From NCBI RefSeq assembly GCF_022662575.1, contig NZ_JALBFU010000001.1, positions 995,810-1,059,809 of the forward strand: DNA of 64,000 nucleotides. Reading direction: 5' to 3'. Source of the DNA: Luteimonas aquatica. Lineage in GTDB: Bacteria > Pseudomonadota > Gammaproteobacteria > Xanthomonadales > Xanthomonadaceae. Of the stretch, positions 21,799 to 29,077 are shown piece after piece. Under the pieces are notes generated by a model that ran no database searches, had not been told where the DNA came from, and saw only the letters and a list, made by a program, of their open reading frames with translations. Both the position numbers and the translations under genes were made by a program. How positions within the stretch are numbered: the stretch's first letter is position 1; each line of letters begins with the position of its first letter.

Positions 21799-21816
21799 TG
21801 GCGGAGTGGACGGGAC
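21799..21816. repeat. att site, distal copy
   Basis: Identical over 18 bp to the 3' end of tRNA-Asp at 29001-29018; flanking bases differ on both sides. It is the expected product of integration at a tRNA 3' end. Confidence 0.92.
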
Positions 21817-21825
21817 ACAACTGCC

Positions 21826-21900
21826 AGTGTCCAGATCCCGCGCCGCTCCTAGCCTTTCACGCCTGGGCACCCGCAAAAAGTGCCCAACTGAGTGTCCAAG
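21826..21900. promoter_or_regulatory. integrase arm-type sites, left end
   Basis: AGTGTCCAGA at 21826 and an exact AGTGTCCAAG at 21891-21900, with a variant AGTGCCCAAC at about 21879. The same decamer occurs twice at the right end by the integrase start. Spaced, same-orientation copies inside both ends of the element are typical of arm-type integrase binding sites; the role is inferred. Confidence 0.6.
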
Positions 21901-22725
21901 TCTACCCCGCCCGCCCGTTTCGCGCGCGCCGCTCTCGTTTTCCTGTTGGAGACCCCTATGGATTGCTTGGGAATTGAGCAACCCGAAGGGGCTACGCCCC
22001 TTCCCACCCCGCCAGTTGCATGGCAGTAACGGCTTCCACAAGGCAACAGCTCTGGCCTTTGCCTCGGTCTCTGCTCTTAACCGCCGACCGACCGAGGCAA
22101 AGTCTCGCCCTGGCCGCTGATAAAGCGGCCTGGACGACCTTTGCCGGGTCGGTCTACCCCGCAGGGCGGAGGACCATCGTCGGCACGGTGATGCCTTGCT
22201 CTACACCGCTAGGCGAGTTCACGCGAGCAATCGCGCCAGGGCCAGGGTCTCGCCACCGGCTTGTGCCGGCGTCTCTCCCGTGGGCTTTGCCCCGTGGCCA
22301 GACCGTCGCCTGGCGCTTTCCTCTCTTGCCCTTCGCACGCCATAGCCGAACGAGACGGGGCACACGATCCCAGGCCAGCACATACCCCATGCCTGGAAGC
22401 CTCCGCGACGCACAAAGCCATGCTGCCGGTTGCGGGCATTCTCTCCCGCCGTTTAAAGCCGCCTTCCGCTTCCCTGCGGTCAGCCCCGGATTGTCACCGG
22501 GCGCGAGCTAATCGGACCACCGTGCGGCCGCCGGTGTCCTAGATCGGTTGCGAGGGAGTTGCGGGCTTCAGGATCGGCGCTAGATTGTTGCTTGGGGCCG
22601 ATGCCTGGGTGTGTAGCCGTGATCTACCACTCGCAGCCGTTGCTAGATACAACGCGCTGCCGCTTCAAAGACAGTAAGGCCGCCGCCGGATCTGTCAAAC
22701 GCCCCCGCATGCGGGGGCGTTGTTT
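21901..22725. other. hairpin-rich island segment without a convincing gene
   Basis: About 0.8 kb. Open frames here have no good ribosome sites and odd compositions (for example a Pro/Arg/Ser-rich one at 22020-22511). The DNA instead shows strong inverted repeats: GAAGGGGC/GCCCCTTC (21985-22003, 3-nt loop), a 13-bp pair at 22057-22069 and 22090-22102, GGCCGCT/AGCGGCC (22112-22130), and CCGGC-TTGT-GCCGG near 22256-22269. A plus-strand terminator ends the block at 22727. It could encode a structured RNA read on the plus strand, or be a decayed region. Confidence 0.4.
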
Positions 22726-22727
22726 TT
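22698..22727 (+). terminator. Rho-independent terminator (plus strand) inside island
   Basis: Stem AACGCCCCCGC / GCGGGGGCGTT around a palindromic centre (22698-22721), then G and TTTTT. On the minus strand no T-tract follows, so it serves a plus-strand transcript, yet no clear plus-strand gene lies upstream. It also overlaps the end of the 22726-23178 membrane gene region. Confidence 0.75.
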
Positions 22728-23178
22728 AAGGTGATGCAGCGCGCGTGATGCGGCCCGAATGGGCTCCTATGCCACTAACCATAGAGAACAAAATGGCCAC
22801 CGCGAGTGCGACTCCGCCACCTACAACAGCCTCTGTCGGAGCGTCATGTAGCTGTATGGGATCAGTAGCAGTCATACGAAAGAGCAGCCAAAGGCCGGCG
22901 CCTAGTGGAACTGAGATAGCACATAGCGTAGCGATAGATAGTCGCCCGAGCCTGCGAAGTAAGAGCGCCACGGGCAGGCCAACAATTACTACGCCTATGT
23001 ATGCGTAGATGAGTGCGACAATAGCGACTAAGGGGAACATGATTAAAGCATCTGTGAAAGAAACATAAATGGGCGGCTTGAGGAGTGATGCCAATGGAGC
23101 AGCCACAAAAGGGGCTATAAGTGGCCCAACTAGCGCACCTAGCCAAAGTGGGCGTTTGTGAGACTTGGGGTATGTCAT
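22726..23178 (-). CDS. multi-pass membrane protein, candidate immunity protein
   Basis: 150 aa, not matched to a named family. It has four or so hydrophobic segments (about residues 11-33, 43-75, 81-101, 117-139) and a basic N-terminus (MTYPKSHKRPLW), hence an inner-membrane protein. It begins 12 bp after the stop of the RHS-tip gene with a GAGGTGG ribosome site, and is less GC-rich than the chromosome. A small membrane protein directly behind a polymorphic-toxin tip gene is the usual position of an immunity gene; that role is inference. Confidence 0.65.
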   Translation of the reverse strand: MTYPKSHKRPLWLGALVGPLIAPFVAAPLASLLKPPIYVSFTDALIMFPLVAIVALIYAYIGVVIVGLPVALLLRRLGRLSIATLCAISVPLGAGLWLLFRMTATDPIQLHDAPTEAVVGGGVALAVAILFSMVSGIGAHSGRITRAASP

Positions 23179-23190
23179 TGCAGAGCCACC

Positions 23191-23853
23191 TCAGGGGCGT
23201 GGGCAGCTTGGAAATGGGCACCAGTTATAGATTGCATCCCCGGACCACCCCATATACTTATCCCATGTCGCGCCTCCAAAAACATTTGGATCTGCGCCAT
23301 ATCGCGTAAACACATCCCGATGGAATTGCCCGATATCTCTTACACGATCGAGCATAACTGGATTTAGCGGCGTAGCGCCGGCATTGTTCAATGCTGCGGC
23401 GTGAGCCCGCGCGAGTGCAACACGAATAGCATCCATTTTTTTATACATATCGTCGTATGCTGCGGGGCATGACTTCTCGCTTGTATTTTCCAGCAATGAA
23501 TTTGCCAATCTTGTGTTCGTTACCCCAGACATGAACCCTTGATTAGCAGCAACCTCTCCGGCGCGACATGCATATTTATCTCCGCCGCTACAGGCCGCTT
23601 GGTAATACAAGCTATAGTTCCCAGTGTTCGCGTAACCCTGTTCAGCGGGCGTAACCCAGCAGCCTCGCTGATCGCATGCCAAGCCAAGCCTATCCGTGAA
23701 GCTCACCGGATTGTTGTTCACATAGGCGTAGGTATTCGTTCCTCCGGCGAGGCCAATCGGATCTGATTGAACATATCGCGCAATGGCTGTGCCGCTGAGC
23801 GCGAGAAGTGACAGGGCTAACAGCCCATTTGCCATAGGCTTGAATTCGCTCAT
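23191..23853 (-). CDS. exported orphan RHS-core tip protein, candidate toxin
   Basis: 220 aa. A hydrophobic leader ([22 protein letters not shown] alternatives at 23853 and 23835) runs straight into the end of an RHS repeat core: [20 protein letters not shown], then [13 protein letters not shown] (residues 26-58). After this conserved hinge come about 160 variable residues with seven Cys in total (60, 65, 88, 96, 129, 212, 217), ending [10 protein letters not shown]. In full RHS proteins the hinge precedes a C-terminal toxin; here the large RHS shell is absent and a signal peptide replaces it. The C-terminal domain is not one I recognise. Confidence 0.75.
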
Positions 23854-23910
23854 CGGTTAGCCCCCTTGTTGTGCCTTGGTGCGTCGAACGGTTTGTAAGT
23901 ATTTTGCATC

Positions 23911-24900
23911 CTAAGCTTGAGAGGGCATCGCCCAACCCAACGCTTCGGCCTTGCTGAACCAAAGATCGTTGTTGTGCCGTAGAGTTTCGTAGTCTTGCCG
24001 CTGGGCGGCGGGGATCGCCGCCGGGGATCGATACTTGGTGATGTAACGCTGCTCCAGCATCCGGAAATAGGCGTTGCCCTTCTGGAGCATCGCAAAGGTA
24101 TCTTTCGGATTGGCTTGGAGCAGAAGATCGGCAACTGCTATGCGACGGTTCTGCTGGCCCTGCTGTCCATAGAATTCCAAGAGCGTGCCAGCCATCACCC
24201 CAACCGCATCCCGCCTACTGAGTGGACGCAGGTAGATGCCGTTCTTCATTGCCAATGGCGTGATGCCATATTCCCGTTGATAGCTGCTGTCGAGCTTGAA
24301 GCCGCCACTGGTCGCTTCCACATTGACCCACTTGTTGTCGAACGGGTTGTGGAACTTGGCCAGCACATGCGTAGGGGCGGTTGCCAGAGTGATGTTCAAC
24401 CCTAATTTTTGGCCCAAGATGACCACGAGCATGGGCATCGAGACGCAATTGCCCTTGCGGGTTCGCAGATAGGTGGCAATGAGCTTGTTGCGAATGTTCT
24501 TACCGAAGGGATCGTCCAGGTCGTAGCTGAAAGGACGATAATCGTTCCAAGACCCCGGCTGGTATATGGAGGCCAACAGCAGTTCCATCTTGACCGCATC
24601 GTTTGCGCCAGCGGGGAAGCGGGCCTTGATGCGGGCCGTCAACGTGTCTAGTTGCCCGAGTGTGGCCGTCATGTCGATCTTGGGATCGATCATACGGTCA
24701 ACCGTCAGCTTGGCCTGGGCGAGATCAAGTTCGGCTTCCGGCTTTGCCAGGATTGCTCGCACTGGCGCAAGCGGGTCGGATTGGGGTGGCGCGGCCCAAG
24801 CAGCCCCAGTCGCGCTGAGTAAGAGCGCGAAGGTCCATGCCGTCAGCAGTCCGTCGATGGTTCGCCGTCCCCACATATCCTTAGCTCTCCCCCTGAACAA
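23911..24900 (-). CDS. exported transglutaminase-like (SirB1-type) protein
   Basis: 329 aa from the ATG at 24900 (a second ATG at 24876 gives a shorter leader). Signal peptide LLTAWTFALLLSATGAAWA. The transglutaminase/cysteine-protease core has Cys152 in TRKGNCVSMPMLVVILGQKL, His178 in APTHVLAKF and an acidic partner Glu195 in VNVEAT. The RKGNC-x-S-x-P block is like SirB1-family proteins. A helical C-terminal part follows. It stands 57 bp before the RHS-tip gene on the same strand. A protein-processing or cross-linking role in the periplasm is possible; substrate unknown. Confidence 0.78.
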   Translation of the reverse strand: MFRGRAKDMWGRRTIDGLLTAWTFALLLSATGAAWAAPPQSDPLAPVRAILAKPEAELDLAQAKLTVDRMIDPKIDMTATLGQLDTLTARIKARFPAGANDAVKMELLLASIYQPGSWNDYRPFSYDLDDPFGKNIRNKLIATYLRTRKGNCVSMPMLVVILGQKLGLNITLATAPTHVLAKFHNPFDNKWVNVEATSGGFKLDSSYQREYGITPLAMKNGIYLRPLSRRDAVGVMAGTLLEFYGQQGQQNRRIAVADLLLQANPKDTFAMLQKGNAYFRMLEQRYITKYRSPAAIPAAQRQDYETLRHNNDLWFSKAEALGWAMPSQA

Positions 24901-24941
24901 CGATACGCCCGTTCAATGCTGGCAGCAATTGGAATACCAGG

Positions 24942-25265
24942 CTACCGCTTGTTAGCCTTTTCAATGGCCGAAAGTATCTTGTCCTGCGCCTCTGAGGACA
25001 GCCTGGAGAAGCCGAGTATTGCGGCCGCGAGCCGCTCATCTGCCGTGAGCAGGTAGGCCAGCGGCACTCCGAGTTCGTGCGCCATGCGCTCGGCCGTTTC
25101 GATATCGGGCAGGTGCCGGCCCTTCTCGTAGCGGTTGATACGCGCCGAGGACACTTCCTCCGGCAGGCCCATCTTCACCCCCAAGCTGTATTGCGACAGG
25201 CCAAGCGCCTTCCTCGCCTCTTTCAGACGAATAGGAAGTATCGCGGCGGTGCGAAGCTTGGGCAT
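24942..25265 (-). CDS. XRE family transcriptional repressor
   Basis: 107 aa. HTH_3 domain: LKEARKALGLSQYSLGVKMGLP...SSARINRYEKGRHLPDIETAERMAHELGVPLAYLL (about 13-74), with a short helical C-terminus for dimerisation. It is the first gene of a leftward run with the transglutaminase-like, RHS-tip and membrane genes (41 bp to the next). A perfect palindrome 52 bp before its start is its likely operator, so it should repress itself and the divergent gene. Confidence 0.88.
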   Translation of the reverse strand: MPKLRTAAILPIRLKEARKALGLSQYSLGVKMGLPEEVSSARINRYEKGRHLPDIETAERMAHELGVPLAYLLTADERLAAAILGFSRLSSEAQDKILSAIEKANKR

Positions 25266-25316
25266 GCGGGAAGGGAAGATTTTCCCCTTCAGGATGCCTT
25301 CAGCGTTCCCAATACG

Positions 25317-25337
25317 ATACTTCGTTGAACGAAGTAT
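25317..25337. promoter_or_regulatory. candidate operator of the island XRE repressor
   Basis: ATACTTCGTT-G-AACGAAGTAT is a perfect inverted repeat with 10-bp arms, centred between the XRE gene and the divergent small membrane-protein gene. A second, shorter symmetry (GGGAA-GATT-TTCCC, 25273-25286) lies next to the XRE start. The arrangement fits bidirectional repression. Confidence 0.7.
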
Positions 25338-25378
25338 TTATCACATTGAACAACAAATTCCTAGCTGAGGGGGATCCG

Positions 25379-25651
25379 ATGGGCATGACTTGGGACGAAG
25401 AGCAGCAGCTTCAAAAGAAACTGCGCGGTGGCTGGATCGCGGCAGGAATAGGCAGTGCCTTTGCCGTGATCCGCTTCCTGTTCCCGATCACAGTGCTTGC
25501 GGCAGCCATCGGGGTCGGTAAGGGGATCGGAGCGATGACCTGGCCCGGCTATGCCGGCAAGGGCTGGAAGCTCATCGGGGCCTCGATCCTTGGCCCTATC
25601 GCGGTCTGGATTGGCCTCTTCGTGCTCTACGGGCTTGTGCTCCGAGATTAA
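25379..25651 (+). CDS. small two-TM membrane protein of unknown function
   Basis: 90 aa from the ATG at 25379, which has GCTGAGGGGG upstream; an in-frame TTG at 25325 lies within the operator and is unlikely. An N-terminal charged helix (MTWDEEQQLQKKLRGG) precedes two hydrophobic segments (WIAAGIGSAFAVIRFLFPITVLAAAIG and LIGASILGPIAVWIGLFVLYGLVL). No family recognised. It is divergent from the XRE run and overlaps the convergent recombinase gene by 4 bp. Confidence 0.6.
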   Translation: MGMTWDEEQQLQKKLRGGWIAAGIGSAFAVIRFLFPITVLAAAIGVGKGIGAMTWPGYAGKGWKLIGASILGPIAVWIGLFVLYGLVLRD

Positions 25652-26898
25652 CCCTGCGGGGACTTGGGGGCTTTGGGAATGGTCGGTGGTTTGTAATCCC
25701 ATGGCCGCGGCGGCTTGGCCTTGCGCTGGGCCGCTGCCATCGCCGACAAAGCGACCGTTACTGGGATGCTGGATCGCTTGCTCTGGTTCGGCAAGGTCTT
25801 GACCATGCGGACAGGGGCAGTCCCCTTTGCCGCTTCAAGCCGGACCGCACCGGAACTGCTGTTCCGATCGCCGTAATAGGACTGCGCCCGGTCCGTGCGA
25901 TGGCCAAGCCACATCGCCGCCGTGGCCCGATCCATCTTGGCCTTGGCGTCGCTGGCGCGGGCGTGACGATACGCATAGGGCGACAGCCCTGGCTGAGCTT
26001 CGCGCAGGGCACGCCGCACCGCCAACAGATCCGCATCGGTCAACTGGATACGAGTGCGGCCGGCTTTCGCCTCTTCGTGCAGTAGACCGATCGCAAGGGC
26101 GGACAGTCCAAACCGCTCCGCCGAAATCACCAGCATCCGCCGGGGCTGCCCTCGCACTCCATCCACCTTGGCCCCCTTGACCTCTAGGCCCAGCGCATCG
26201 CCGCGCGCGGTCAACCGCACACCGTTCTTCAACTCTTGTGGCCGCACCCCGAAGCAAGCGAACAATAAAGAGGCGACCTCAACCCGCGCCGCACGGCGGC
26301 GTTGCTGCGACAGCAGGAACAACAATTGATCGGGCGTGGGGGCAGTGCGGCTGGCGGCGCGTTTGCTTTTCCCGGCCTTTCTCTCCAATCCTGCGGCGCG
26401 TAGCGCCGCCGCCTTGGCGCCCCATGTCGGGCGATCCGGTTGAAGAAACAGAACATCGAAGACTGTGGCCCGTTGGAGCGCTCGGCCGGTCAGGTCGGCC
26501 ATACGGGCGTAGTCCTTGGCCTTGCGGGCGGCTTCCGATTGCCGCCGCAGTCCGCGGATGGCCTCGGCTTCGCAGTAGCGCCAGGCCGATCGCAGGAAAT
26601 TGAAATGCTGGAAGGTGGTGGCCTTGTCGGCGGGCGTCTTGCCTTCGGCCAGCATATCGGCATAGGCGCGACGATATCGGGCGATGGTGGGCGCGCTGGG
26701 ATTACGCTGACCTGCCTCCGCCAAGATCGCCTTGACGCGCCGGTCTGCCATGATGCCCGGATCATCGCCCGTGCGCTTGGCCTCGGCGATCACTTGGTCG
26801 GCGGCAGCGTTGATGGCGTCGGCATGGTGACGACGCAGCCAGACCGGCAGCCGGAGGCTGTCGGTCGCTGCTTCGTCGATGGTCTGCCTTGTCTTCAT
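25648..26898 (-). CDS. second tyrosine recombinase-like protein
   Basis: 416 aa. The catalytic domain of phage integrases is recognisable: Arg219 in LLFACFGVRPQEL, Lys candidates in LEVKGAKVDG, box II SPYAYRHARAS (Arg311, with Tyr308 where His is usual), then WLGHRTDRAQSYYGDR with His333 and Tyr341/342. N-terminal helical SAM-like region about 70-160, and a basic Pro-rich tail. It is separate from the tRNA-proximal integrase. It could help excision, act on another site, or be a domesticated DNA-binding protein. Confidence 0.75.
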   Translation of the reverse strand: MKTRQTIDEAATDSLRLPVWLRRHHADAINAAADQVIAEAKRTGDDPGIMADRRVKAILAEAGQRNPSAPTIARYRRAYADMLAEGKTPADKATTFQHFNFLRSAWRYCEAEAIRGLRRQSEAARKAKDYARMADLTGRALQRATVFDVLFLQPDRPTWGAKAAALRAAGLERKAGKSKRAASRTAPTPDQLLFLLSQQRRRAARVEVASLLFACFGVRPQELKNGVRLTARGDALGLEVKGAKVDGVRGQPRRMLVISAERFGLSALAIGLLHEEAKAGRTRIQLTDADLLAVRRALREAQPGLSPYAYRHARASDAKAKMDRATAAMWLGHRTDRAQSYYGDRNSSSGAVRLEAAKGTAPVRMVKTLPNQSKRSSIPVTVALSAMAAAQRKAKPPRPWDYKPPTIPKAPKSPQG

Positions 26899-27265
26899 CC
26901 GCTCGCCTGTTCACCGTTCTATTCGCGCTGGCTCTCGCCATCGCTCATGCTCGCGTTGCTCCCGCAACACTCGCGCGGCCTACGCTTGCGCTTCGGCCGT
27001 CGTCTTCTCGCTCCCGCTCGCCCCTACGCTTCGCTCCGGGGACAGACGACCCTCTTCCCGCCTTGGCTACTTCCCCGGCCAGCGGGGAAATATCCAATCT
27101 GGTCAGAGGGCATATTGTTGGTCAGTTCCTGACCAACAATATTTGAGAGCAACACCCTTCTACATTCACCTTGGCAGAAAACCGGCGACGCGCAAGCCCG
27201 CTCCCTTTTGGTCTCCGGAGACCTGCGCCCTTGCGCGTCTCCGGAGTTCTGCTATTCGATGGATC
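26899..27265. other. intergenic control region with nested inverted repeats
   Basis: 367 bp between the divergent second recombinase and a small RHH-like gene; no gene seen. The left half is pyrimidine-rich. The right half has TTCCCCG/CGGGGAA (27071-27089), the long repeat at 27112-27142, an IR pair GACGCGCAAG (27187-27196) / CTTGCGCGTC (27230-27239), and within it the palindrome GGTCTCCGGAGACC (27210-27223) whose core GTCTCCGGAG recurs at 27237-27246. It is probably an operator cluster or a recombination or nicking site. Confidence 0.5.
27112..27142. promoter_or_regulatory. long perfect inverted repeat, candidate operator
   Basis: ATATTGTTGGTCAG and its exact reverse complement flank a 3-nt centre (TTC), giving 14-bp arms. 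A further half-site TGGTCAG lies 8-14 bp to the left (about 27100). No T-tract follows on either strand, so an operator is likelier than a terminator. It is 124 bp before the small RHH-like gene. Confidence 0.6.
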
Positions 27266-27475
27266 ATGACCACAGCGACGAAACAGGCGCGCTACCGTGC
27301 TCGCAAGCTGGAAGAGTGCGAACGCCTCGATTTGTTTCTGGCGAAGCCAGCAGCACGCGAGCTGCGCCGACAGGCTAAGGCCGAAGGACGCCGTGCCGGC
27401 ATCCTTGCCGCCGATCTTCTCGCGGCGGCATTACTGAAGTCGCCCCAGCCGTGGCCCGCGTCGTCGGAAGATTAA
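27266..27475 (+). CDS. small basic protein, ribbon-helix-helix-like
   Basis: 69 aa from the ATG at 27266. After a basic N-terminus (TKQARYRARKLEECE), the pattern LDLFLAKPAARELRRQAKAEG followed by a hydrophobic helix AADLLAAALL resembles a ribbon-helix-helix fold, as in CopG/MetJ-type repressors. It ends 4 bp inside the convergent integrase gene. It may be the DNA-binding protein for the inverted repeats upstream. Not recognised as a named family. Confidence 0.5.
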   Translation: MTTATKQARYRARKLEECERLDLFLAKPAARELRRQAKAEGRRAGILAADLLAAALLKSPQPWPASSED

Positions 27476-28920
27476 ACCAGCAGTTTCCGCAGTGCCGGCA
27501 AGTCCAGGCCGAACGACAGCGCCGGGTGGCACAACTTGGCGAGCGATGGCGGCCGCAAATCCACACCATAGGCATCATGGTGATCGTCAGTCTCGCCTTG
27601 CTCGTGGCCGCAATACTCTCGGCGATACTCCTCCCGCACGCCGCCCAGCTTCATCGTGGTGATGGCAGTATCCCGGAAACTATGCATACCCACCTTGCCA
27701 TGACCGCGCGCCTTGATCTTCAGCCGTTGCAGGTAGCGGCTAAACGCGCTCTGTGCGGAGTTGCCCGGCCCATTCTCGGCCAGGAATTCCAGTTCCGGGA
27801 ACAGTTTTGTTTCTCCCGCCTCGCATAGCCGCTCTACACGCTCCCACAAGCCCAGCGCGATCAAATCAGGATGGACCGGTGTAATGCGCTCGCTGGCATC
27901 CGTCTTCAGGCTCTTGTGGTCGCCCAAAAAATTGAAATCGAACACCGGCACCGCCACGTTACCGAGATAGTTGTAGCAGTCCTCAATTTCCAGGTGCGCC
28001 AGCTCGTTGGCGCGTGCGCCGGTATACAAAGCCAAGAGCGGCAACCATCGGGCCGCCTCGGTGCGCAGGCGGGCGTAGGCCTCCGGGTTGAAAATCTTCC
28101 CGACCTGCGCTGCGCTGAACGCCTGCCAGCCATGGGACTTGGCGCGACGCCTGCGCTCCTTCTTGGGCACCTGCGCATGGCCGCGTGCCGGATTGTCGTC
28201 TTTCGGGAAATAGTTCGATGCCATCGCCCAATCGAAGAACAACGCCAGCACCAAGAACTGGTTTTCGATGTAGCGCGGGGCGGGTTGCTTTCCGCGCTTG
28301 GTGGTGCTGGCCTTACAGGCGATGAAATATTCGGCGAAATCAGTGCGCGTGGCGTCGCTCACAAGGAACGGGCCGCCGCTGCGAGCGCGCTTCCAAGCAG
28401 CGAACGCCTCGACCTTGCTCCGCTTGGACTTGCTGCCCTTGCGCTTGCCGGGGCTGTCCATGGGCAGGGTCAGCGCCCACATGCGGATGGCTTCGTCCAT
28501 GTCCAGTGGTTTGCAGGCCGGCGGCCGTGCGGCCATCTCCGCGCGTATGGCGGACGGGACCCGTCCGATAGCTTCGATGGCCTCTAAAGCACGGGCATGA
28601 TCCTCGGGGCCGTCGGCTTCCAACTCGCCGGTAGCCAGGTTCACCTTGTATTTGATTGCGCCCTGCTGGCGGATGCCCTCCAGCAGCTCGTCCGCCAGCT
28701 TCTTGTCCGCCATCCCGTGCCGCCCCCGCAGCGCCTCGAAAGCCGCAGCATAGCCGGCGGCCCAACTGGTCGCGATGGCGAGCGCCTGGCGCGGACAGCG
28801 CGCCCTCGTGGCGCGCTTGACGATGGCGCGTCCGACCTGGGGCCGCAGGTCCAGGGGCACGCGCAGGCGGAAGTAAAACAAACCTGAGGGTTCGCGAACG
28901 AGGTAGTGCGCAACTCGCAT
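27472..28920 (-). CDS. int: tyrosine site-specific integrase of the island
   Basis: 482 aa from the ATG at 28920 (MRVAHYLVREPSGLFYFRLRVP). A TTG further up would lie inside the arm-type repeats. The N-terminus resembles the DUF6538 arm-binding region. Catalytic residues: Arg303 (LYTGARANELAHL), Lys339 region, His413 and Arg416 (MHSFRDT), His439 (CGHEQ) and Tyr451 (HDAYG), so it looks active. It lies 80 bp from the att site in tRNA-Asp, the classic position for an integrase using a tRNA 3' end. Confidence 0.9.
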   Translation of the reverse strand: MRVAHYLVREPSGLFYFRLRVPLDLRPQVGRAIVKRATRARCPRQALAIATSWAAGYAAAFEALRGRHGMADKKLADELLEGIRQQGAIKYKVNLATGELEADGPEDHARALEAIEAIGRVPSAIRAEMAARPPACKPLDMDEAIRMWALTLPMDSPGKRKGSKSKRSKVEAFAAWKRARSGGPFLVSDATRTDFAEYFIACKASTTKRGKQPAPRYIENQFLVLALFFDWAMASNYFPKDDNPARGHAQVPKKERRRRAKSHGWQAFSAAQVGKIFNPEAYARLRTEAARWLPLLALYTGARANELAHLEIEDCYNYLGNVAVPVFDFNFLGDHKSLKTDASERITPVHPDLIALGLWERVERLCEAGETKLFPELEFLAENGPGNSAQSAFSRYLQRLKIKARGHGKVGMHSFRDTAITTMKLGGVREEYRREYCGHEQGETDDHHDAYGVDLRPPSLAKLCHPALSFGLDLPALRKLLV

Positions 28921-28923
28921 GGA

Positions 28924-28945
28924 AGTGTCCAAGCGAGTGTCCAAG
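28924..28945. promoter_or_regulatory. integrase arm-type sites, right end
   Basis: Two exact copies of AGTGTCCAAG (28924-28933 and 28936-28945), 12 bp apart, directly upstream of the integrase start. Shared with sites at 21826 and 21891. Binding here would also place the integrase over its own promoter. Confidence 0.65.
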
Positions 28946-29000
28946 CGCTGAAAAAACGAAACGCCCGCAAACCATTGATTTGCAGGCGCTTCTTGACTAG

Positions 29001-29077
29001 TGGCGGAGTGGACGGGACTCGAACCCGCGACCTCCGGCGTGACAGGCCAGCATTCTAACCGACTGAACTACCACTCC
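29001..29077 (-). tRNA. tRNA-Asp (anticodon GTC), island integration site
   Basis: 77 nt: acceptor GGAGTGG / CCACTCC, D arm TAGTTCAGTCGGTTAGAATG, anticodon loop CTGTCAC (GTC), T arm CGCGGGTTCGAGTCCCG, discriminator G, CCA encoded. The gene is intact; its last 18 nt form the right att copy. Confidence 0.97.

Follow-up and report, generated by a model that had tools for sequence, protein, structure and literature searches.

A putative Sec-exported toxin with an Rhs hinge and a transglutaminase-like partner gene in Luteimonas aquatica

The stretch of Luteimonas aquatica DNA analysed here (64,000 nucleotides, hereafter the window) carries a short minus-strand ORF whose product is predicted to be an exported toxin, together with the neighbouring genes and sites listed in Table 1. 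The ORF is exact at its boundaries, and the plus strand over the same span contains several stops. The predicted signal peptide has a hydrophobic core of 11 residues, with A-I-A preceding residue 26. TIGR03696 (Rhs_assc_core) matches residues 23-58 against model positions 41-76 of 76, scoring 44.4 bits (cut-off 32.5), and the portion fused to the signal peptide is the final 33-residue stretch of that core. No YD-repeat shell is present: a protein of 220 aa is too short to hold one, and the last 36 of the 76 core-model positions alone are matched. The part of the protein behind the hinge contains seven cysteines and has no match in Pfam (E ≤ 1), PADLOC (E ≤ 1) or NCBIfam, the Rhs core models aside. 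These observations agree with the initial annotation, which had described the ORF as a signal peptide fused directly to an RHS hinge and a nameless C-terminal domain; the profile search of that domain which it proposed returned no named toxin family from the three libraries. The transglutaminase-like gene upstream and the membrane-protein gene downstream were absent from that annotation.

Table 1. Genes, protein parts and putative attachment sites of the toxin locus, in window coordinates.
Feature	Position	Strand	Remarks
Far attachment site (putative)	21799..21816	.	18-nt exact copy of the tRNA-Asp 3' end
Putative cognate immunity protein, 150 aa	22726..23178	-	5 hydrophobic segments; begins 12 bases past the toxin stop
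Putative exported toxin, 220 aa	23191..23853	-	signal peptide + Rhs hinge + variable C-terminal domain
C-terminal domain, putative toxin	23194..23679	-	residues 59-220 (162 residues)
Rhs hinge	23680..23778	-	residues 26-58; end of TIGR03696
Signal peptide	23779..23853	-	residues 1-25, ends A-I-A; hydropathy and -3/-1 residues
Secreted transglutaminase-like protein	23911..24900	-	PF13369 (Transglut_core2); signal-like N terminus
HTH_3 (XRE-type) regulator	24942..25265	-	
Integrase-like protein beside tRNA-Asp	27472..28944	-	PF20172 above cut-off
Near attachment site (putative)	29001..29018	.	18-nt 3' end of tRNA-Asp; tRNA-Asp at 29001-29077, minus strand

The GC content between 22,500 and 25,500 is 51-59%, against 66-74% on the left flank and 59-69% on the right flank, where the contrast is weaker. 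The integrase-like protein beside the tRNA gene matches PF00589 below the cut-off (E 1.2e-4, 22.3 bits, cut-off 27.1), and the 7.2 kb from 21799 to 29018 is putatively a small integrative island at tRNA-Asp that carries the toxin module. Control of the island or of the operon is a possible role for the HTH_3 regulator. A 416-aa ORF at 25648-26898 has no Pfam match; by eye it looks recombinase-like.

The joining of a signal peptide to an Rhs hinge is recurrent. Among 150 relatives, a protein search found numerous matches to the hinge, a few of them beginning within the signal peptide, and three more direct joins were read among these matches (L113, L115 and L117); a signal-peptide-plus-hinge profile was built from these three and the window ORF. 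Searched against 395 genomes of the host's own family, Xanthomonadaceae, the profile found at least 36 places where the match reached model position 15 or less, all in frames of no more than 414 codons except one of 1132 codons in G278. Thirty-six loci of 4.6-10 kb were taken, comprising the 35 non-window places (34 loci, L178 holding two) and two loci from the protein search of the 150 relatives (L187 and L188). L185, which is the G278 frame, and L188, which is without a signal peptide, were excluded from the fusion class, and the fusion ORFs among the matches listed number 36 with the window's included, four of them being the profile seeds. A start-codon rule wanting 16-45 residues ahead of the hinge then defined a set of 39 proteins, made up of the window's own, 33 from 32 of these loci, and five from loci reached by way of the enzyme gene described below; L182 and L186 fail the rule and lie outside the set. 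Because the rule demands those 16-45 residues, it selects in part for a leader; it does not select for the residues at the junction. With the junction placed by pattern, position -1 is Ala in 39/39 proteins and position -3 is Ala in 32, Val in five and Ser in two, in keeping with the "self-exported tip" of the initial annotation. Over their first ten residues, 37 of the proteins carry a net positive charge and the other two are neutral.

L160, which has a TTG start only, was left out of the alignment and scans. In the remaining 38 proteins Asp31, Pro32, Tyr42, Tyr44, Pro49, Asp54 and Gly57 are invariant, and TIGR03696 is matched at E ≤ 0.01 by every one. The C-terminal ends of the 39 proteins form 17 clusters (BLASTP, 1e-4) and the proteins are therefore a polymorphic set, having the constant N-terminal part and exchangeable C-terminal domains by which polymorphic toxins are recognised. 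The 38 scanned members match four Pfam families at E ≤ 0.01; weak matches to Peptidase_M91 and Zn_peptidase_2 occur in one member each, and HExxH-like motifs are seen by eye in several of the C-terminal clusters. Many other short hinge ORFs in these genomes are unlike the fusion class in that they have no signal peptide and keep remnants of the Rhs core.

The gene upstream of the toxin in the window begins at a TTG (24900) or an ATG (24876), and the predicted enzyme carries a Cys152-His178-Glu195 triad. An in-frame TAG, well past the triad, ends the gene 18 codons ahead of the frame's next stop, which is about where members of the class usually end, and 57 bases separate the enzyme gene from the toxin gene; given this stop and this gap, the window's gene is possibly in decay, unless the stop at the shortened end (23854-23913) is a sequencing error. 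Among the matches listed, an enzyme homologue lies directly upstream on the same strand for 30 of the 36 fusion ORFs, or 26 of 32 when the seeds are removed, the 30 including five loci with a split or partial enzyme frame (L158, L162, L176, L180 and L184). The second fusion ORF of L178 sits after the first, behind the same enzyme, and five others lack an enzyme gene immediately upstream (L165, L171, L172, L181 and L182), the gene being located about 2 kb downstream of the fusion in L165 and nearby on the opposite strand in L182.

The association also holds when approached from the enzyme. A profile of the enzyme gave at least 41 matches, in 31/395 genomes of the family, and a fusion ORF was located directly downstream in 25 of the 30 enzyme loci examined (L198 by eye), 20 of which had already been counted from the fusion side and five of which were new. 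The other five comprise L201 and L212, where a fusion ORF is found elsewhere nearby, an outlier of 36% identity (L215) and two fragments (L216 and L217). A stop/start overlap of 1 or 4 bases joins enzyme and fusion in 26 of the 32 measurable pairs (out of 39), the window being among the other six. Among the 55 short-hinge loci L063-L117 the enzyme occurs in three, each of which has a signal peptide; the N termini of the other 52 were partly inspected, and the association there is suggestive. Length allowed 34 of the 41 distinct enzyme frames to be aligned, and in these the triad is kept throughout (Cys in 34, His in 34, Glu in 32 and Asp in two). A search of solved-structure profiles with the enzyme family returned mostly TPR proteins and weak matches to peptide:N-glycanase. 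A split-Rhs origin, with the enzyme once the N-terminal domain of an Rhs protein, was considered and rejected, as none of seven full-length Rhs ORFs matches the enzyme profile.

Outside the host's family, the enzyme was found in four of 328 genomes of the order searched. It is followed by a full fusion in G580 and by a signal peptide with the hinge tail only in G142; in G618 and at both copies in G574 it is followed by neither a fusion nor a hinge tail. At the level of the taxonomic class (243 genomes), G725 and G762 hold close homologues of the enzyme, each followed by a fusion, and six weaker matches have no fusion after them. The G142 locus (L228) shows, downstream of the enzyme, a signal peptide, the last hinge residues and, further on, an HEAGH motif, which would be a minimal form of the tag. 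The enzymes of G618 and G574 (L230, L231 and L234) are close homologues without an adjoining downstream hinge protein, and possibly have a different use.

A frame of at least 70 aa begins between -42 and +13 bases from the toxin stop in 37 of the 39 cases. These third genes are mechanically called ORFs, some of which are not genes. Homology between them is seen in 38 of the 68 pairs drawn from the same C-terminal cluster versus none of 673 pairs drawn from different clusters, leaving 30 of the 68 same-cluster pairs with non-homologous third genes; the pairs are not independent, because some loci are close relatives. The third gene thus appears to vary with the C-terminal type, as it does in toxin-immunity pairs. 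The window protein is alone in its cluster in this count, its relatives in L037 and L057 having related neighbours, and its 150-aa neighbour is homologous to the gene behind the L037 relative. By eye, about 31 of the 39 third genes encode a lipobox, a signal peptide or membrane segments, and no envelope signal is evident in those of L154, L165, L171, L172, L198 and L203; a transposase-like frame occupies the position in L176, and the third gene of L181 is ambiguous. With about 8/39 lacking an evident envelope signal, some toxins of the class may act outside the envelope.

Relatives of the window's C-terminal domain occur, with matches of varying quality, in 12 of the 395 genomes of the family, the host's own included. 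The domain forms the C terminus of full-length Rhs frames in G293 (1744 codons) and G207 (1717 codons), and is found in short frames in G389, G232, G157 and G400, as fragments in G237, G178 and G231, and as weak matches in G426 and G032; none was found in plasmids, phages or viral contigs. The relatives in L037 and L038 share 67% identity with it in the best segment. At 2101-5585 of L037, an Rhs ORF is followed by a displaced tip that has an Rhs-core remnant, no signal peptide and the same toxin domain. Cys88 and Cys96 are jointly present in six of eight aligned relatives and jointly absent in two, as expected if the pair forms a disulfide. An ORF that by eye encodes a lipoprotein or membrane protein directly follows the domain in 10 of 11 loci, no following gene having passed in the eleventh (L058). 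One lipoprotein family occupies this position in L053, L054, L055, L056, L059 and L060 (15/15 pairs match), the domain copies of L059 and L060 being broken or partial, and a multi-segment or membrane protein is found in the window, L037, L057 and L038. The L037 follower matches those of the window (31-35% identity) and of L057 (36% over 84 residues), and the L038 follower matches none of the others compared.

The domain also has a distant relative in a different kind of effector. The N-terminal domain of P0006, an XVIPCD protein encoded in the host's own genome (contig C5, L006:538-1887), is similar to the window domain at a BLASTP E value of 8e-6 in a single comparison, and hhalign of the C-terminal family against the P0006 side, which comprised only two sequences, gave E 2e-6 and a probability of 89.5. 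The statement of the initial annotation that the domain matches no nameable toxin family stands for the libraries searched, and must be qualified by its presence at the end of two full-length Rhs frames and by this distant resemblance to an X-T4SS effector. A VirB10-type gene is present in the host genome. A homologue of P0006 is found in L061, where it is preceded, at 980-2745, by a tandem pair of near-alike lipoprotein-like ORFs that looks like a duplicated immunity gene. The cysteine pair, the membrane-protein or lipoprotein neighbours and the X-T4SS likeness point weakly to an action of the window toxin in the envelope. A structure predicted for the domain from three sequences (window, L037 and L038) had a mean pLDDT of 40 and thus offered no confident fold, and a search of solved-structure profiles with the C-terminal family gave nothing of weight (two matches, best E 0.64).

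The accepted picture of an Rhs toxin is a giant cocoon, which stores a toxin and delivers it through large machines. The fusion class is derived from Rhs and is without the shell. It shares with Rhs toxins and orphan Rhs tips the TIGR03696 hinge, a variable C-terminal domain and an adjoining immunity-like gene, and the window's own C-terminal domain is one that also ends full-length Rhs proteins. It differs in having no YD-repeat shell, in possessing its own signal peptide and a conserved transglutaminase-like partner, and in its relation to the type VI secretion system: VipB, the sole T6SS component sought, is absent from the host's own genome (52 contigs, 99.98% complete) and is present in 8 of the 30 module genomes, these being 28 of the 31 enzyme-positive genomes of the family with G142 and G580 added. 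GspD is present in all 30, which is only permissive for a type II route because the comparison covered module-bearing genomes alone. Sec export is the one delivery step with support from the sequence.

Among other known systems, one that the class appears to resemble in its working is MafB/MafI of Neisseria, in which a signal peptide and a constant N-terminal part precede a variable C-terminal toxin and an immunity gene, with mafA, a constant gene for an exported protein, often upstream of mafB (PMC4287609). The present class has a counterpart to each of these elements, with an immunity-like gene matched to the toxin; it differs in that its constant part is an Rhs hinge and its upstream gene is transglutaminase-like and not a MafA lipoprotein. 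The DUF1020 domain (PF06255) was not found, the window protein matching no Pfam family at E ≤ 1 and the four families matched by the 38 members not including it, and we read the module as one that works like Neisseria MafB yet is not MafB. Rhs toxins with an inactive N-terminal transglutaminase have also been described; there the domain stands ahead of the Rhs array within a single protein, and residues of its triad are missing (PMC3482391). Both cases link a transglutaminase-like domain to Rhs toxins in exported proteins, but the enzyme here is a separate gene whose triad is kept in 34/34. X-T4SS effectors carry an XVIPCD, an example being Smlt3024 with its immunity protein Smlt3025 (PMC6759196). 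The likeness to this group is weak, consisting of the distant similarity of the window domain to the N-terminal domains of P0006 and its L061 homologue; the comparison rests on those two proteins (PF20410 is present in P0006), and the window protein has no match to the XVIPCD (PF20410). A shell-less, Sec-exported Rhs set with a transglutaminase-like partner looks like a new form of bacterial toxin system. Among the best-ranked titles and abstract openings from full-text searches of an open-access library, none describes the three-gene module, subscription papers and preprints being outside the scope of that search.

The window ORF thus probably encodes the toxin in a small operon of the polymorphic toxin kind from which the Rhs cocoon has been lost, the toxin being exported by Sec and MafB-like in its working. 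The sequences strongly support the anatomy of the class: the fusion exists and recurs, the genes keep their order, stop and start codons overlap in most copies, the triad is intact, and the third gene co-varies with the C-terminal domain; the toxic function of its members, their delivery route and the reaction of the enzyme are what we infer from it. In order of transcription, the operon would encode a Sec-exported transglutaminase-like enzyme, then the exported toxin, then an immunity protein matched to that toxin. The mature toxin would begin with the hinge of ~33 residues, followed by the exchangeable C-terminal toxin; having crossed the inner membrane by Sec, it might leave the cell via a type II system, in vesicles or on cell contact. 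The enzyme and the hinge being the sole constant parts of the module, the enzyme would act on the hinge, by cleaving, deamidating or cross-linking it, and so to mature or tether the toxin. The window toxin would act in the envelope of a neighbour, with the five-segment membrane protein shielding the producer.

Other readings account for part of this evidence. The initial annotation had also suggested a cassette waiting to recombine, in which case the ORF would be a displaced Rhs tip held in reserve and recombined through its hinge onto a full-length rhs gene, its signal peptide being incidental. The kept hinge sequence, the full-length Rhs frames of G293 and G207 with the same C-terminal domain and the displaced tip of L037 behind its larger Rhs ORF are all in its favour. 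The tips of L037, L038 and other loci, however, keep core remnants and have no signal peptide, unlike the class, and a reserve cassette leaves the conservation of the upstream enzyme, the stop/start overlap and the signal peptidase sites unexplained; it explains less than an exported toxin does, and we regard it as rather unlikely. We consider it very improbable that the ORF is the decaying remnant of a full-length rhs gene in which an internal deletion joined the signal peptide to the tip. Such a deletion could create the fusion, as signal-like N-terminal segments are seen by eye in 7/7 full-length Rhs proteins, and the premature stop in the window's enzyme gene would fit a locus in decay; yet the reading frame of the fusion is open, such fusions are found in different genera and families and bear various C-terminal ends, and the class is tied to an enzyme that no full-length Rhs ORF of the seven carries. 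The initial annotation had held that a full-length Rhs gene with the same C terminus would mark the ORF as a truncated pseudogene: such genes do exist, and the pseudogene half of the proposition is not borne out.

The enzyme-like features of some C-terminal clusters, namely the HExxH-like motifs and the weak peptidase matches, would also suit secreted enzymes serving nutrition or envelope upkeep, with the third gene encoding an inhibitor or chaperone and not immunity to a weapon. Conflict is a better fit to C-terminal ends that are exchanged after an unvarying leader and paired with a corresponding third gene, to the patchy distribution of the enzyme within the family, and to a window domain that is common to Rhs proteins and distantly related to an XVIPCD protein, and the nutritional or upkeep role is unlikely.

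Within the preferred reading of an exported polymorphic toxin, the enzyme may, as a tentative proposal more doubtful than the reading itself, be a dedicated replacement of the Rhs cocoon, recognising the hinge and covalently processing or tethering every toxin of the class through a tag of 33 residues. If this is true, the module would be a portable format (enzyme, tag, any toxin and its matching immunity) that needs Sec export only, and the Rhs hinge would be a free-standing recognition tag, beyond its role as the lid of a shell. The recurrence of a shell-less class in itself raises the question of what the hinge does in the absence of the shell, and offers for this purpose a test protein of 220 residues instead of one of 1,600. 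The class also provides 17 clusters of candidate toxins, most with an adjoining candidate immunity gene, and the window's cluster is one shared with full-length Rhs proteins and perhaps also with a T4SS effector. At 3235-5179 of L178, two signal-peptide-plus-hinge proteins of different C-terminal types are arranged in tandem behind one enzyme gene, each with its own third gene.
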